Position numbers and translations under genes: made by a program. This document shows, one piece after another, positions 4,222-15,718 of a DNA stretch of 22,251 nt. Origin of the DNA: a virus; the IMG/VR virus record IMGVR_UViG_3300032323_001912, positions 1 through 22,251 of that record. The stretch is one strand, 5' to 3'. The notes under the pieces were generated by a model. It was not told where the DNA came from and did not search any database. It worked only from the letters and a program-made list of their open reading frames with translations. Position 1 is the stretch's first letter, and every line of letters begins with the position of its first letter.

Positions 4222-4917
4222 ATGGCAAAAAACAAAATGGAACTCACCGATGAACTCGGTGGTGTGATTGCTGAAACTATCAACAAGCAATTCAAATCTC
4301 AAAATCTCAAAACGGCTTACTTCTTGGAAGGTGACGATGATGCACCAACCATCGTGAAGGAATGGGTATCTACGGGGTCAACTATTCTTGACCTTGCCAT
4401 CTCAAACAGAAAGAATGGTGGATTTCCCGTTGGTCGTGTTTGTGAAATAACAGGGTTGGAACAGAGCGGTAAGTCACTACTTGCCGCTCACACCCTACTC
4501 AATACTCAAAAGAAGGGTGGTCTCGCTGTCTATATTGACACAGAAAATGCCCTTTCAACAGAGTTTCTTTCAGCCATCGGTCTCAATCTAAAAGAGATGT
4601 TGTATGTTCCACTCGAAACGGTGGAAGACATTTTCGAAACGGTCGAGACTATTATCGAGAAGGTTCGTTCATCAGATAAGAACCGACTTGTGACTATCGT
4701 TGTTGACTCTATTGCAGGAGCTTCAACAAAGACAGAAATGGCGGCTGACTTTGATAAGGATGGTTATGCAACTGCTAAGGCACTCATCATCTCAAAGGCG
4801 ATGAGAAAGATTACGAACTTGATTGGTCGTGAACGTATCTGCCTTATCTTTACAAACCAACTTCGTCAAAAGTTGAATGCACCTGCATTTTCAGATCCGT
4901 GGACAACACCTGGTGGT
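4222..4917 (+). CDS. uvsX: UvsX/RecA recombinase, exon 1
   Basis: Codes for residues 1-232 of a 381-residue RecA-family recombinase (T4 UvsX has about 390). It forms filaments on ssDNA and drives strand exchange for repair and recombination-dependent replication. Visible are Walker A GLEQSGKS at 78-85, the catalytic-Glu strand IDTENA with Glu108, the Walker B strand LVTIVVDS with Asp162, and the L2-side TNQLRQK at 211-217. The open frame runs on as RMELCLQ-stop, which is intron. The conserved TPGG is completed by KGIPFHAS in exon 2, so the exon must end at the GGT codon ending at 4917. AGGAG precedes the ATG, and the gene is co-transcribed with the gp32 gene. Confidence 0.93.
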
Positions 4918-5133
4918 AGAATGGAACTTTGCCTCCAGTAAAAAATTCGGTGAATTGCTGGAAAATCCTTAGAGCTTTTACACCACAACATAATTGGTAA
5001 CAATAAGTGTGATGGTTTGAAAAGTAAAAGATTGGACAATCAGCATCCAAGCATCTCAGTGATGAGATGAAGGTTCAGAGACTAATATGAGTAATCTTTC
5101 AAAATTGGGTAAGACTTTTCCATTTCACAAACA

Positions 5134-5140
5134 TATTTAT
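5134..5140 (+). promoter_or_regulatory. TATTTAT motif inside the intron
   Basis: ACATATTTATATGT, 18 nt before the intron endonuclease ATG and just before its AAGGAG. An internal promoter for the endonuclease, as in T4 introns, is inferred. Confidence 0.5.
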
Positions 5141-5157
5141 ATGTAAAGGAGATACCT

Positions 5158-6012
5158 ATGAAAGAAGAAAATAACACGAGTGCCGAATATCAGAGTGAAC
5201 TATTGAAATGCGAGATTTGTGGTAAACAAATGAAGTCTATTACAAATTCTCATCTGAGAGATAAACACAATATGACAACCGAAGAGTATAGGGTAATATA
5301 TCCTAACTCTAAGATGATTAGAGATGGTCATAATTCTAAACTAAGTGAGTGGAGAAATTCAGAACGGAATAAAGCTCACTGTGTTGAAATGAATAAGATA
5401 ACTGCTAACTGTGAAAGAAGAAAACAGAAATGTAGAGAGGTTACACAGAGTTTAGAATATAGACAAAATCATAGTCGTCGTATGAAAGAGTATGTCAAGA
5501 AGCATCCGGAAAGTATAGTTTGGAAATCTATTCGTGGTAAAAATCATCACCATTATGGTAAATCAAATTGGCAAAGATGGTTTGATAAATATGGTGAAGT
5601 AGTCGCAAATCAAAAACTTGCGGAATGGAAACAGAAGAATAGAATACCAAGTACCAGTCGTGATACAAAAATTGAGAGAAATGTAAAATCCATCTTGGAA
5701 AAACATCAGATTGAATACATACATCAGTATGATAAGATTTCCAGCATTTATATTGATTTCTTTATACCTAAAGCAAACTTAGCTTTAGAGATTCACGGTG
5801 ATTACTGGCACGCTAATCCAAAAAAATACAAACCGGGTGAGGAAATAAAATATCCAGGAAACCGAATCATAAAAGCTTCGGACATATGGGATAAAGACAG
5901 AAAACGTGTTGAAAAAATAAAATCTCTCGGATATTCAGTAATTGAACTTTTTGAAAGTGACATAACTGAAGACATTGTAATCAATTCAATAACTCATCTG
6001 ATAAAGATATAG
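5158..6012 (+). CDS. Intron-encoded homing endonuclease, Vsr-like (EDxHD type)
   Basis: 284 residues. N-terminal CCHH zinc-finger-like unit (Cys18, Cys21, His32, His37) followed by MTTEEYRVIYP, the pattern of ROS/MucR-type domains found in phage endonucleases. The middle (about 55-165) is basic and DNA-binding-like with a HHHYGKSNWQRWFDKYGE stretch. The C-terminal domain has the Vsr/very-short-patch-repair-like layout: Glu173, a strand with Asp200 (IDFFIP), then LEIHGDYWH with Glu211, His213 and Asp215, and a final KRVEKIKSLGYSVIELFE. This matches the family that includes I-Bth0305I, itself found in a phage recA intron. It would cut intronless uvsX alleles and spread the intron. AAGGAG lies 6 nt before the ATG. 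Its stop codon is part of the intron's S element, so protein and ribozyme overlap. Confidence 0.85.
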   Translation: MKEENNTSAEYQSELLKCEICGKQMKSITNSHLRDKHNMTTEEYRVIYPNSKMIRDGHNSKLSEWRNSERNKAHCVEMNKITANCERRKQKCREVTQSLEYRQNHSRRMKEYVKKHPESIVWKSIRGKNHHHYGKSNWQRWFDKYGEVVANQKLAEWKQKNRIPSTSRDTKIERNVKSILEKHQIEYIHQYDKISSIYIDFFIPKANLALEIHGDYWHANPKKYKPGEEIKYPGNRIIKASDIWDKDRKRVEKIKSLGYSVIELFESDITEDIVINSITHLIKI

Positions 6013-6072
6013 TCCGAACTTACGAGAAATCGTAAGAAGTGTGGTGTAAATATCCACACGATAACAAAATTG

Positions 6073-6522
6073 AAAGGAATTCCATTCCACGCCTCTGTAC
6101 GAATCCGTCTATCATCCATCGGTGCCATCAAGGCAAAGGTGAACGGACAAGATACAATCGTGGGTTCACGAGTAAAGGCAAAGCTCGTGAAGAACAGGTG
6201 CGGCCCTCCTCTACGTGAAGCCGAGTATGCCGTCTATTTTGATAGCGGTATAGATGATTATGGTTCTTGGTTGGAAACAATGAAGGATTATAATCTGGTG
6301 AAACAAAGTGGTGCTTGGTATGAATGGACAGACCAAACAACAGGAGAGATTATCAAGTTCCAAAGTAAGGACTTTGTATCAAAGATAATCAGCAACCCTG
6401 AATACAAAGAAGTGGTCTACGATTCTATCGCCGAAAAGGTGGTGATGCAATACCAGAAAACAGATGAAGTCAGAATTGATGATGTATCAATTACGGACGA
6501 ACCGCTGTTAGACGAGGTTTGA
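6073..6522 (+). CDS. uvsX: UvsX/RecA recombinase, exon 2
   Basis: Codes for residues 233-381. It begins KGIPFHASVRIRLSSIG, which directly continues the RecA motif TPGG of exon 1, then has the remaining core strands and a C-terminal domain with YDSIAEKVVMQYQ and an acidic tail. Read alone the frame could start at a TTG at 6070, but that base triplet is the last of the intron. No separate start site or ribosome-binding site is needed. A 13-bp hairpin follows the stop by 5 nt. Confidence 0.92.
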   Translation, partial: KGIPFHASVRIRLSSIGAIKAKVNGQDTIVGSRVKAKLVKNRCGPPLREAEYAVYFDSGIDDYGSWLETMKDYNLVKQSGAWYEWTDQTTGEIIKFQSKDFVSKIISNPEYKEVVYDSIAEKVVMQYQKTDEVRIDDVSITDEPLLDEV

Positions 6523-9294: not shown

Positions 9295-9311
9295 ATAGTT
9301 ATAAACATAAG

Positions 9312-9387
9312 GCCGTGGAATTCATTTGATTCGTAGTTTGTTTCTCGACTCCTACACAATCGCTCCGAATCCACGGCTTTTCTTTTT
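9312..9387 (+). terminator. Terminator-like stem after the exonuclease gene, long loop
   Basis: GCCGTGGA (9312-9319) pairs with TCCACGGC (9370-9377), extended by ATTC/GAAT with one bulged A, then TTTTCTTTTT. The loop is about 50 nt and contains most of one arm of the longer inverted repeat (9320-9346), so the two folds compete. Confidence 0.5.
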
Positions 9388-9434
9388 CAATTTGATATTT
9401 ATTAGTAGAGAAACAAACTACATATCAAATGAAT
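9320..9434 (+). promoter_or_regulatory. Long inverted repeat abutting the ribosome-binding site of the GIY-YIG gene
   Basis: Arms 9320-9346 and 9408-9434 are complementary at 25 of 27 positions. The 3' arm ends one base before AGGAG (9435-9439) of the GIY-YIG gene. CTCCT at 9349-9353 in the loop could also pair with AGGAG. A TATTTAT motif lies just before the 3' arm, so transcripts begun there would lack the 5' arm. Translational control is inferred. Confidence 0.7.
9396..9402 (+). promoter_or_regulatory. TATTTAT motif before the GIY-YIG gene
   Basis: GATATTTATTAG inside the loop of the long inverted repeat. A start 6-8 nt downstream would fall at the first base of the 3' arm. Confidence 0.55.
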
Positions 9435-9445
9435 AGGAGAACGTT

Positions 9446-10132
9446 ATGGTCATCTATAAGACCACCAATTTGGTGAATGGCAAACAATACATTGGCAGAG
9501 ACAGCCACAATAATCCAAACTATCTTGGTTCTGGTGTATTATTACAAAGAGCAATTTCAAAATATGGAAAAGATAATTTCAAGAAAGAAATTATTGAAGA
9601 ATGTTTATCATTGGAAAATCTAATACGGCGCGAAGAATATTGGTTGGATTATTATGATGCAGGTAATAACCCTATGTTTTACAATGTTCATAATAAAGGT
9701 AACGGATATTCGGTTAGTGGTGAAAAACATCCTATGTATGGTAAAGAACCGAGTGAAGAGACAAGACAGAAAATTAGCAAAGCAAATCGCGGACAAAAAA
9801 GAACCGATGAAACAAAAAGAAAAATAAGTCAAGCTCTCACCGGAAGAAAAATTAGTGAAGAAACTAGAATCAAAAATAGGAATTCACATCTCGGAAAGAA
9901 ACCACATGAAAACGCAATAATGAAATTGAGAGAATTGGGCGGTAAAAATAGTCCACATTTCAAGGGATATGTTTTGTGTGTAAAGGGTCAATATGAAAAT
10001 CAATCTAAAACAATATCTGATTGGTCTTCTATTCTAAATGTGGGACACTCTCATATTTCTGGTCATTTGTATGGTAAGAAATATAAAAATGGAATAAAAG
10101 GAAATTTCTTTGTGAGAGAATGTAAATTATAA
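9446..10132 (+). CDS. Free-standing GIY-YIG homing endonuclease
   Basis: 228 residues. The N-terminal catalytic domain shows VIYKTTN (2-8) and KQYIGR (13-18), the GIY and YIG elements, and a later LIRREEYWLDYYD helix carrying the acidic residue. Then come NUMOD3-type repeats (GEKHPMYGKEPSEETRQKIS, then TDETKRKISQALTGRKISEETR) that bind DNA, and a C-terminal HTH-like element around SKTISDWSSILNVGHSHISG that resembles NUMOD1. This is the I-TevI/Seg-like layout. It lies between the exonuclease and helicase genes, a typical place for free-standing phage homing endonucleases, which cut near their own site in related phages. AGGAG is 6 nt before the ATG. Confidence 0.9.
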   Translation: MVIYKTTNLVNGKQYIGRDSHNNPNYLGSGVLLQRAISKYGKDNFKKEIIEECLSLENLIRREEYWLDYYDAGNNPMFYNVHNKGNGYSVSGEKHPMYGKEPSEETRQKISKANRGQKRTDETKRKISQALTGRKISEETRIKNRNSHLGKKPHENAIMKLRELGGKNSPHFKGYVLCVKGQYENQSKTISDWSSILNVGHSHISGHLYGKKYKNGIKGNFFVRECKL

Positions 10133-12968: not shown

Positions 12969-14825
12969 ATGGATATTAGCAACCGAATCCTTTCGGATAT
13001 TACTGTATTCCAAAAATACGCAAAATACCTACCCGAATTGAATCGGAGAGAAACATGGGAAGAGTTGGTGACGAGAAATAAAGAAATGCACCAAAATAAA
13101 TACCCACAACTTCACGATGAAATTGAATCTGCCTATAAGTTTGTCTACGATAAGAAGGTTCTTCCATCCATGAGATCTCTTCAGTTCGGTGGTAAACCAA
13201 TTGAAATCAACCCATCAAGAATTTATAACTGTTCTTATTTACCAATTGACGACTGGCGTGCTTTTGGTGAAGTAATGTTTCTTCTTCTCGGTGGAACTGG
13301 TGTAGGTTTCTCCGTTCAAAAACATCACGTTGAAAAGCTACCACCAATTCACAAACCAAAGAAAGACCGCGAACGTAGATTCCTCGTCGGTGATTCTATT
13401 GAAGGTTGGGCTGATGCAATCAAAGCCGTTGTAAAGTCATACTTCTTTAGCGGTTCATCACTTCGTTTTGACTATTCAGACATTCGTCCAAAGGGAACTC
13501 GTCTCATCACATCAGGTGGTAAGGCACCAGGACCAGAACCGCTTCGTATTTGTATTGAAAAGATTCGATCTATCCTTGAACTAAAGCACGATGGTGAAAA
13601 TCTAACTCCATTAGAAGTCCACGATATTATCTGTCATATTGCAGATGCGGTTCTTGCCGGTGGTATTCGTCGTGCTGCTCTTATCTCTCTTTTCTCTGCT
13701 GATGATAACGAAATGATTTCGTGTAAGTTTGGTGCATGGTGGGAATTGAATCCTCAACGTGGACGTGCAAATAACTCGGCAGTATTACTTCGTAGTAAGA
13801 TTACCGAAGAGTTCTTCAAGGAGTTGTGGAAGAAGATTGAACTTTCAAACGCAGGTGAACCAGGAATTTACTTCTCAAACGATAAGGACTGGGGAACAAA
13901 TCCATGTTGCGAAATTGCACTCCGTCCATTCCAAATGTGTAATCTCTGTGAAGTAAACGCATCAGATGTGGTAGACCAACAAGATTTGGAAGACCGAGTT
14001 CGTGCTGCCGCATTTATTGGAACGCTCCAAGCATCATACACCGAGTTCCATTACCTCCGTCCAATTTGGCAAAGAACTTGTGAAAAGGATGCACTTCTTG
14101 GAATCGGTATGACTGGTATTGGTTCAGGTGTAGTTCAGAAGTTGGATGTCAAAACTACGGCAAAGATTGCAAAGGAAGAAAACGAAAGAGTTGCAAATCT
14201 TCTCGGTATCAATAAAGCTGCAAGAGTAACTTGTATCAAACCATCAGGAACAACATCATGTGTTCTTGGTACGAGTTCAGGTATTCATGCATGGCACAAT
14301 GACTACTATATCCGTAGAATCCGTATTGGTAAGAATGAGGCACTATACAACTATCTTATCCAAAATCACCCACAGTTGGTGGAAGATGAATACTTCCGTC
14401 CACATGATACCGCCGTCGTTGGTGTCCCACAAAAGGCACCAGACCATGCTATCATGAGAACAGAATCACCTATTCAACTTCTTGAACGAGTGAAGTGGTT
14501 TAGTCAGCAGTGGATTCGTCAGGGACACAGAAGTGGTATGAATACTCACAATATTTCGGCAACGGTATCTATCCGTGAACATGAATGGCCTGCGGTCGGC
14601 GAATGGCTCTGGGAAAATAGGGACACATACAATGGTATTTCAGTATTACCTTTCTCCGACCATAGTTACATACAGAGCCCATTTGAAGATATTACAGAAG
14701 AAAGGTATCATCAGTTAATGGAAACTCTCAAAGACGTGGACTTGAGGCTCGTAATTGAAATGGATGACGAGACTGAATTGGCTGGAGAAATTGCGTGTGG
14801 TGCATTGGGTTGTGAAATAAAATAA
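12969..14825 (+). CDS. nrdJ: Class II (B12-dependent) monomeric ribonucleotide reductase
   Basis: 618 residues, shorter than the roughly 740 of Lactobacillus leichmannii RTPR. Key residues are all present with the right spacing: Cys88 (YNCSYLP, redox), Asn311-Pro-Cys313-Cys-Glu315 (radical-site Cys313 and Glu315), Cys324 (second redox Cys, 11 residues later) and the C-terminal relay pair Cys610/Cys615 (CGALGCE). FLLLGGTGVGFSV (substrate-site region) and KPSGTTSCVLGTSSGIH (phosphate-binding region) also fit. It makes deoxynucleotides for phage DNA using adenosylcobalamin from the host and needs no oxygen or second subunit. CGGAG precedes the ATG. An HNH homing endonuclease gene follows directly. 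Confidence 0.93.
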   Translation: MDISNRILSDITVFQKYAKYLPELNRRETWEELVTRNKEMHQNKYPQLHDEIESAYKFVYDKKVLPSMRSLQFGGKPIEINPSRIYNCSYLPIDDWRAFGEVMFLLLGGTGVGFSVQKHHVEKLPPIHKPKKDRERRFLVGDSIEGWADAIKAVVKSYFFSGSSLRFDYSDIRPKGTRLITSGGKAPGPEPLRICIEKIRSILELKHDGENLTPLEVHDIICHIADAVLAGGIRRAALISLFSADDNEMISCKFGAWWELNPQRGRANNSAVLLRSKITEEFFKELWKKIELSNAGEPGIYFSNDKDWGTNPCCEIALRPFQMCNLCEVNASDVVDQQDLEDRVRAAAFIGTLQASYTEFHYLRPIWQRTCEKDALLGIGMTGIGSGVVQKLDVKTTAKIAKEENERVANLLGINKAARVTCIKPSGTTSCVLGTSSGIHAWHNDYYIRRIRIGKNEALYNYLIQNHPQLVEDEYFRPHDTAVVGVPQKAPDHAIMRTESPIQLLERVKWFSQQWIRQGHRSGMNTHNISATVSIREHEWPAVGEWLWENRDTYNGISVLPFSDHSYIQSPFEDITEERYHQLMETLKDVDLRLVIEMDDETELAGEIACGALGCEIK

Positions 14826-14854: not shown

Positions 14855-14916
14855 CTCCGTTTGAATATTCTTGACTTTATTGTATATTTATAGTAAAGTC
14901 AACTATTCAAACGGAG
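14855..14916 (+). promoter_or_regulatory. Long inverted repeat over the ribosome-binding site of the HNH gene
   Basis: Arm 14855-14879 pairs with 14894-14916: 13 bp (CTCCGTTTGAATA / TATTCAAACGGAG), a small asymmetric bulge (TTC against C), then 9 bp (TTGACTTTA / TAAAGTCAA). The 14-nt loop holds the TATTTAT motif. The GGAG ribosome-binding site (14913-14916) is fully inside the stem. Translational silencing of read-through mRNA is inferred. Confidence 0.78.
14885..14891 (+). promoter_or_regulatory. TATTTAT motif in the hairpin loop before the HNH gene
   Basis: TTGTATATTTATAGTAAA, identical over 18 nt to 21161-21178. A sigma70-like reading (TTGAAT 14861, 16 nt, TATATT 14883) overlaps it. Confidence 0.6.
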
Positions 14917-14922
14917 ATGTTT

Positions 14923-15486
14923 ATGGGAAAGAAAGGGGTTTCAAAATATTTTGGGATATTAAAACCGGGTGATAAATTTGGAGAATGGGAAATTTTATCT
15001 GATGTGTTCGTTGATAAGGAGTCCCGTGTAAATGCAAGATGCTCGTGTGGATATGAATCAAGTCCGAGTGTATTGACGATTATAAAAGGAATATCTACTC
15101 GTTGTTGGAAATGTGGTTATAGTAGAAAGATGGAAGAAAATCCCGCATGGAAGGGGTATAAAGAAATACCATACGGTTGGTTTAGTAAATACTTTGAAAG
15201 AAATACAAAAAGAGCGGGAAAAAGATTTGGAGACATTACCATCGAACAAGTCCACGAATTATGGATAAGTCAGGATAAAAAATGTGCTCTAACTGGTTTA
15301 CCGATAGATTGGATAAAACGTGAAGATGGTGTTTCTTGTTCAATAGATAGGATAAGTTCAGATGGAGAATACACAATTGATAACATTCAACTTGTTCACA
15401 AAGACATCAATCTTATGAAAAACCATTTTGACCAAGATTATTTTATTCAGATGTGTAAATTAGTTTGCCAAAACAATTTGCAATAA
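14923..15486 (+). CDS. Free-standing HNH homing endonuclease
   Basis: 187 residues. The ATG at 14923 is 6 nt after GGAG; the ATG at 14917 touches that site and is rejected. The N-terminus has GEWEILSDVFVD and a zinc-ribbon-like set Cys40, Cys42, Cys61, Cys64, as in many phage HNH proteins. The C-terminal nuclease shows KCALTGLPIDW (121-130) and SIDRISSDGEYTIDNIQLVH (140-159) with Asp142, Asn154 and His159, then INLMKNHF. This fits the phage HNH group with D-R-I...G-Y-T...N-I-Q. It sits just after the ribonucleotide reductase gene, a classic location. Translation is probably gated by the inverted repeat at 14855-14916. Confidence 0.87.
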   Translation: MGKKGVSKYFGILKPGDKFGEWEILSDVFVDKESRVNARCSCGYESSPSVLTIIKGISTRCWKCGYSRKMEENPAWKGYKEIPYGWFSKYFERNTKRAGKRFGDITIEQVHELWISQDKKCALTGLPIDWIKREDGVSCSIDRISSDGEYTIDNIQLVHKDINLMKNHFDQDYFIQMCKLVCQNNLQ

Positions 15487-15488
15487 CC

Positions 15489-15495
15489 TATTTAT
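15489..15495 (+). promoter_or_regulatory. TATTTAT motif
   Basis: CCTATTTATCTA, 47 nt before the ATG at 15542, just after the HNH stop. Its flanks fit the extended motif less well. Confidence 0.35.
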
Positions 15496-15541: not shown

Positions 15542-15718
15542 ATGACAAAGCAAGAACTCTATGAGCAGATCACAAACCTGTTCAACGAATTCACCGTCGG
15601 ACACAATTCAAAGTTCAAGAAGGGTGCAGGAGACGCTCGTAAGGCGTTGGGTGCTATCAAGAAGTTGATTACACCTTACAACAAGGCATCTGTGTCTGAA
15701 GGCAAAGAATCCAAGTAA
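15542..15718 (+). CDS. Small basic protein, possibly histone H1/Hc1-like
   Basis: 58 residues: begins MTKQELYEQITNLFNEF, then KFKKGAGDARKALGAIKKL and a Ser/Lys tail. The K-x-G-x-G-x2-ARKAL-x2-IKKL pattern is like the small histone H1/Hc1-like proteins of Bacteroidota and some of their phages, which bind DNA. The match is short and by eye. AGGAG lies 7 nt before the ATG. The next gene starts 5 nt after the stop. Confidence 0.6.
   Translation: MTKQELYEQITNLFNEFTVGHNSKFKKGAGDARKALGAIKKLITPYNKASVSEGKESK

Follow-up and report, generated by a model that had tools for sequence, protein, structure and literature searches.

Control of homing endonuclease genes by a hairpin and a late promoter is a published mechanism, described for I-TevI, I-TevII, I-TevIII, segB and the mobE gene of Aeromonas phage Aeh1 (PMC2988022; PMC3014915). 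In Aeh1, mobE is an HNH gene located at a ribonucleotide reductase (RNR) gene, its ribosome-binding site falls in a hairpin only on RNA initiated upstream, and a late promoter lies immediately ahead of it (PMC2988022). Resident genes of T4 use a similar arrangement, as for gene e (lysozyme), soc and gene 49, where the Shine-Dalgarno sequence is hidden in early RNA and free in late RNA (PMC3014915). Here we describe a locus of this kind in a stretch of viral DNA of 22,251 nts (IMG/VR record IMGVR_UViG_3300032323_001912), which we call the window. Our reading, to which we assign a probability of about 0.78, is that a promoter placed inside a hairpin times the expression of a freestanding HNH homing endonuclease inserted between the RNR gene and its neighbour. 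The features of the locus are

12969..14825, + strand: ribonucleotide reductase (RNR), 618 aa, probably class II (phrog_367, E 2e-127; Pfam Ribonuc_red_lgC)
14855..14879, + strand: 5' arm, CTCCGTTTGAATATTCTTGACTTTA, with an anti-Shine-Dalgarno CTCC at 14855-14858
14880-14893: hairpin loop of 14 nt, with TATTTAT at 14885-14891
14884..14891, + strand: ATATTTAT, located in the loop; promoter motif of the lineage, probably a late -10 element
14894..14916, + strand: 3' arm, TAAAGTCAACTATTCAAACGGAG
14913..14916, + strand: Shine-Dalgarno GGAG, paired throughout in the long RNA and free in an RNA begun within the loop
14923..15486, + strand: freestanding HNH / endonuclease VII-like homing endonuclease, 187 aa (phrog_1035, E 9e-16; phrog_3322, E 5e-15)
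15489..15495, + strand: TATTTAT of the next gene, which lies right behind RNR in relatives with an empty site
15542..15718, + strand: conserved 58-aa gene, right edge of the insertion site, 100% identical in relatives L004, L005 and L095

The locus resembles Aeh1 mobE in having an HNH gene at RNR, a ribosome-binding site held in a hairpin and an adjoining late promoter. It differs in that mobE is embedded within RNR and uses a T4-type late promoter, whereas the window gene stands behind RNR and carries ATATTTAT, and in that the window arms are unrelated to those of other switches in the same genome. With the T4 endonucleases (I-TevI, I-TevII, I-TevIII and segB) it shares a promoter placement that leaves the late RNA without the inhibitory 5' strand, but those are mostly intron-encoded GIY-YIG enzymes with TATAAATA promoters, and the window gene is a freestanding HNH. 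Unlike T4 gene e, soc and gene 49, which are resident phage genes, none of the 85 non-endonuclease promoter genes of this lineage reaches our pairing threshold. RNR being the upstream gene, the 5' arm would be part of its read-through transcript. That RNA would contain both arms and form the hairpin, burying GGAG and leaving the endonuclease untranslated. Later in infection, RNA polymerase together with a phage late factor would initiate at ATATTTAT in the loop, and the resulting RNA, beginning a few bases downstream and lacking the 5' arm, would expose GGAG for translation.

The two arms form 22 basepairs (13 bp and 9 bp, separated by a 3/1 internal loop) worth -26.5 kcal/mol by themselves. 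The complete leader folds at -39.3 kcal/mol, compared with -13.5 +/- 2.75 in 200 dinucleotide shuffles, none of which matches it (z = -9.4). A sequence-only reading of this DNA had proposed the two arms and the 14-nt loop with TATTTAT, and its coordinates are exact; the order it described (5' arm, motif, 3' arm, ribosome site) is real, and the complete burial of GGAG that it claimed is borne out, 14913-14916 being fully paired. The leader has the paired ribosome-binding site in read-through RNA that characterizes T4-type hairpin-regulated endonuclease leaders, and the promoter motif lies in the loop in sense orientation, where the predicted start would give an RNA without the 5' arm. Opening the GGAG region costs 8.6 kcal/mol in the RNA from RNR and 0.9 in the loop-started RNA, taken to start 12 bases past the first base of the motif. 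The reading frame has in-frame ATGs at 14917 and 14923, and since GGAG directly abuts the first, translation most likely begins at 14923. An indel between its arms hides this hairpin from an ungapped inverted-repeat search (at least 18 nt), which lists only the 9301-9453 repeat. The hairpin is not followed by a T tract, no Rfam family matches the window at gathering thresholds, the exact 20-mer of the HNH 5' arm occurs nowhere else in the viral contigs, and the searches turned up no close HNH homologue whose arms are homologous as well.

The evidence that the loop carries a promoter comes from the distribution of its motif. The coding strand of the window has 16 copies of TATTTAT and the opposite strand 4, where 8.65 would be expected for both together, and most copies are 20-60 bases ahead of genes. 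No other 7-mer is as frequent ahead of genes in a set of 162 non-redundant related viral loci (1560 gene starts), where TATTTAT has 149 sense and 24 antisense occurrences against 20 in an equal in-gene stretch; the preceding base is A in 69% of the sites, and no -35 element accompanies them. The -35 region of T4 late promoters is likewise unconserved (PMC2988020). In Microcystis phage Mel-JY01, the nearest cultured relative found (61% helicase identity), the first 50 kb, which hold capsid and tail genes, have 9 intergenic copies of ATATTTAT in sense and none in antisense, for 0.75 expected, and several of these sites are 41-45 bases before starts, including that of tail tube gp19. Around gp23 in the loci of seven relatives, the motif is in sense orientation at six genes and antisense at none. 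The T4 late promoter TATAAATA does not occur in the loop in sense orientation, the word there being ATATTTAT. We considered the motif as a reverse-strand TATAAATA promoter and set this aside, as the orientation bias toward downstream starts opposes it. A sigma-70 scan gives chance-level counts (20, with 22.1 expected), and a full-text literature search returned no paper joining TATTTAT, phage and promoter and none naming Mel-JY01. Judged by where it occurs, TATTTAT is very probably the promoter of the lineage, formed by a -10 element only, and probably of the late class because it stands ahead of late structural genes in Mel-JY01. An alternative that we regard as unlikely, if a serious one, is that it is a middle-type or host-sigma -10, in which case the switch would sort transcripts by their origin without late timing. 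The motif also precedes many non-structural genes of the window; the phrog_234 profile for gp55-family sigma factors weakly matches one of 11 related records and leaves gp55 undetected in the other 10, the window being a 22-kb fragment; and Ma-LMM01, a phage of a related host, has SigA-like promoters throughout. The absence of a -35 element argues against this alternative, as does the presence of the motif between structural genes in Mel-JY01 and directly behind gp23 in relatives.

Arms around the promoter are a property of endonuclease genes. Among non-redundant promoter and start pairs 20-62 bases apart, 16 of 22 endonuclease genes show arm pairing with z <= -3.5, compared with 0 of the 85 others (Fisher P about 2e-14, an overstatement given the partial kinship among the endonuclease leaders). 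The endonuclease leaders fall into roughly nine separate sets of arm sequences. The group of other genes still includes a few probable endonucleases below threshold, such as the one at 7857 in L226, so the true endonuclease rate is somewhat lower than 16/22. The sequence-only reading had inferred convergent or modular timing control of mobile endonucleases; this association favors the claim, which is tempered by two relatives without arms (L244 and L245, described below) and by a principle that was known earlier.

The second leader of the window to which the hairpin had been compared belongs to a GIY-YIG gene, with the features

9312..9388, + strand: intrinsic terminator of the comparison leader, GCCGTGGA...TCCACGGC plus T tract, with the 5' arm 9328-9346 in its loop
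9396..9402, + strand: TATTTAT of the GIY-YIG gene
9408..9426, + strand: 3' arm of the GIY-YIG leader, with GGAG 9436-9439 outside
9446..10132, + strand: GIY-YIG/NUMOD3 homing endonuclease, 228 aa

The two had been called the same switch, which holds for the layout and not for the detail, as the leader at 9320 includes a terminator and its stem stops a little short of GGAG. With GGAG a few bases past the stem, the cost of opening its Shine-Dalgarno changes from 1.5 to 0.7 kcal/mol, and much of the silencing is probably due to the terminator. Made up of terminator, arms, promoter and gene, the GIY-YIG module (window 9301-9453) is found at several genomic sites, and sometimes twice per contig (L089, L162, L006). 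The terminator loops of these leaders (window 9312-9439) contain a CTCC-type anti-Shine-Dalgarno just before the 3' strand of the terminator, which often matches the Shine-Dalgarno of its own leader (e.g. L112, L164, L171), in a pairing that would cross the main arms. The terminated upstream RNA might act in trans on the GIY-YIG leader.

Covariation of the arms in related phages had been proposed as a check, and compensatory changes are present in the GIY-YIG leaders. For nine of these leaders, the one at 9320 included, cognate arms pair at -18.8 kcal/mol on average and non-cognate arms at -10.0. Covarying pairs include TTTCTC/GAGAAA, TTTGTC/GACAAA, TTGTCTC/GAGACAA and GTGTTCA/TGAACAC, and L164 shows a matched loss of one base on both sides. 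An HNH arm paired with a GIY-YIG arm reaches just -4 to -8 kcal/mol, to be compared with -26.5 for the HNH arms together, which confirms the lack of relation to the arms at 9320; since the HNH arms pair with no GIY-YIG arm, "independently built" holds for sequence. These results bear on the possibility that the inverted repeat acts chiefly at the DNA level, as an operator palindrome over the promoter to which the endonuclease or some other protein binds, giving autorepression of the kind known for I-TevI. The repeat is a near-palindrome of 64 bp centred on the promoter, with an opposite-strand self-match of 82%, and autorepression by I-TevI is published. We nevertheless find an operator quite improbable: the GIY-YIG arms covary while their sequence shifts, for which RNA pairing is a better fit than a fixed protein site, the 3' arm terminates exactly on the Shine-Dalgarno, and the arms of the window and of two HNH relatives (L249 and L246) have no sequence in common.

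The switch reading takes the gene downstream to be a mobile endonuclease. Its product matches phrog_1035, phrog_3322 and phrog_3118, and an alignment shows a conserved HNH core (DRI...Y...N...N.MK), from which nuclease activity and homing are predicted. A single-sequence search of viral contigs finds no close relative, while an alignment search does find HNH relatives, located in many phages immediately after RNR; no related solved structure was found by sequence. In L004, L095, L099, L102 and L172 the site is empty, with 68 bases and one TATTTAT from RNR to the next gene, and the window HNH module sits between the RNR stop and that promoter of the next gene. Because of the empty site in L004, L095, L099 and L102, we take the module to be an insertion. 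Other phages carry different genes at the same place: a GIY-YIG gene complete with terminator, arms and promoter is present in L005 and L202, two GIY-YIG genes occupy the site in L174, and the single one in L084 lacks both the arms and the promoter module. This presence/absence polymorphism is what is expected of homing endonucleases, and it identifies the site behind RNR as a hot spot. The 3' end of RNR (window 14780-14825 and related loci) also varies. By raw counts that ignore kinship between loci, the C-terminal tail reads CAGGAC in 70 of the 90 RNRs where no endonuclease was detected downstream and in 2 of the 15 that are followed by an HNH gene; for CGAxGC, the counts are 4 of 90 and 5 of 15, respectively. 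To go by these tails, the changed one may be an altered, cleavage-resistant homing site.

The endonuclease leaders at the hot spot take three forms. In form 1, arms surround the promoter and bury the Shine-Dalgarno, as in the window, L249 and L246 (HNH) and in L034 and L037 (GIY-YIG beside RNR), where opening the Shine-Dalgarno costs 12-13 vs about 0.5 kcal/mol; the arms of L249, L246, L034 and L037 are unrelated. In form 2, arms around the promoter end at the start codon, without a Shine-Dalgarno and behind a terminator; L275 is a clear case (z -4.6), and L265, L272 and L274 are suggestive and not significant. In form 3, the hairpin is farther upstream and TATTTAT is 11 bases before the ATG, without arms or Shine-Dalgarno. 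This is the form of L244 (51% identity) and L245 (41%), which keep the HNH gene, the site and the promoter and lack arms; loss of arm complementarity with the gene kept, named beforehand as the case that would refute the proposal, does therefore occur, and the promoter-in-hairpin device is common and not obligatory. The layout of L244:1430-1501 and L245:1430-1501 suggests nearly leaderless late transcripts, and such RNA would likewise leave the read-through RNA silent. In L245, the HNH gene has an early in-frame stop.

The hairpin is directly behind the RNR stop, L244 and L245 have a terminator-like hairpin, and L265, L272, L274 and L275 have an intrinsic-type terminator, all of which would agree with a hairpin that serves the RNR messenger, by ending or protecting it, the burial of GGAG being a side effect. 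We judge this very improbable, as no T tract follows the window hairpin, the empty-site relatives have no such hairpin behind RNR, and the arms are always on both sides of the promoter of the endonuclease gene. A chance hairpin is strongly disfavored, to the point of being negligible, for although AT-rich DNA yields many hairpins in any window, this one has z -9.4 and the arrangement recurs at 16/22 endonuclease genes vs 0/85 others.

Two other features of the window deserve mention. The recA gene is interrupted (window 4222-6522), with exon 1 ending near 4919 (TTPGG) and exon 2 resuming near 6073 (KGIPFHASVR), and the RecA of relatives is intact with 384 aa. On either side of a Vsr-like endonuclease ORF (5158-6012), which carries a TATTTAT of its own at 5134, there are weak matches to group I introns (4879-5193 and 5939-6036); the combination resembles I-TevI in td. 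Many small and otherwise unlike proteins share N-terminal leaders, MKLSSRKELLxEAE..SLNE, RMMKLAGLLTES and MIKLKxILxE:

6600, 7050, 7502, 7894, 18852, about 19706; 17791, 18451, 21211; 16110, 16824: small proteins with shared leaders

A Pfam scan of nine of these proteins gives no match. We presume that the leaders resemble T4 capsid-targeting sequences with an [LI]xE prohead-protease site; if so, the proteins would be packaged and injected.

The hairpin-timing mechanism itself is already known from T4-type phages. What is new is the promoter word, the repeated independent construction of the switch (unrelated arms, two nuclease families, one lineage), and the RNR hot spot with several leader forms. 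A broader proposal, tentative and at somewhat less than even odds in our estimate, is that, at several sites, any newly established endonuclease of the two families gains its own promoter-in-hairpin leader with new arms, that the forms at the RNR hot spot (arms burying the Shine-Dalgarno, arms ending at the start codon without one, and a terminator with a nearly leaderless late promoter) have converged, and that a rule of no translation from read-through RNA has been repeatedly selected. ATATTTAT is the likely late-promoter consensus for phages related to Microcystis phage Mel-JY01. So far, only a few coliphages and phages of Aeromonas were known to use the T4 timing trick, and here it would extend to a large uncultured lineage, in which repeated independent selection for silencing of read-through RNA can be tested by comparative genomics alone.
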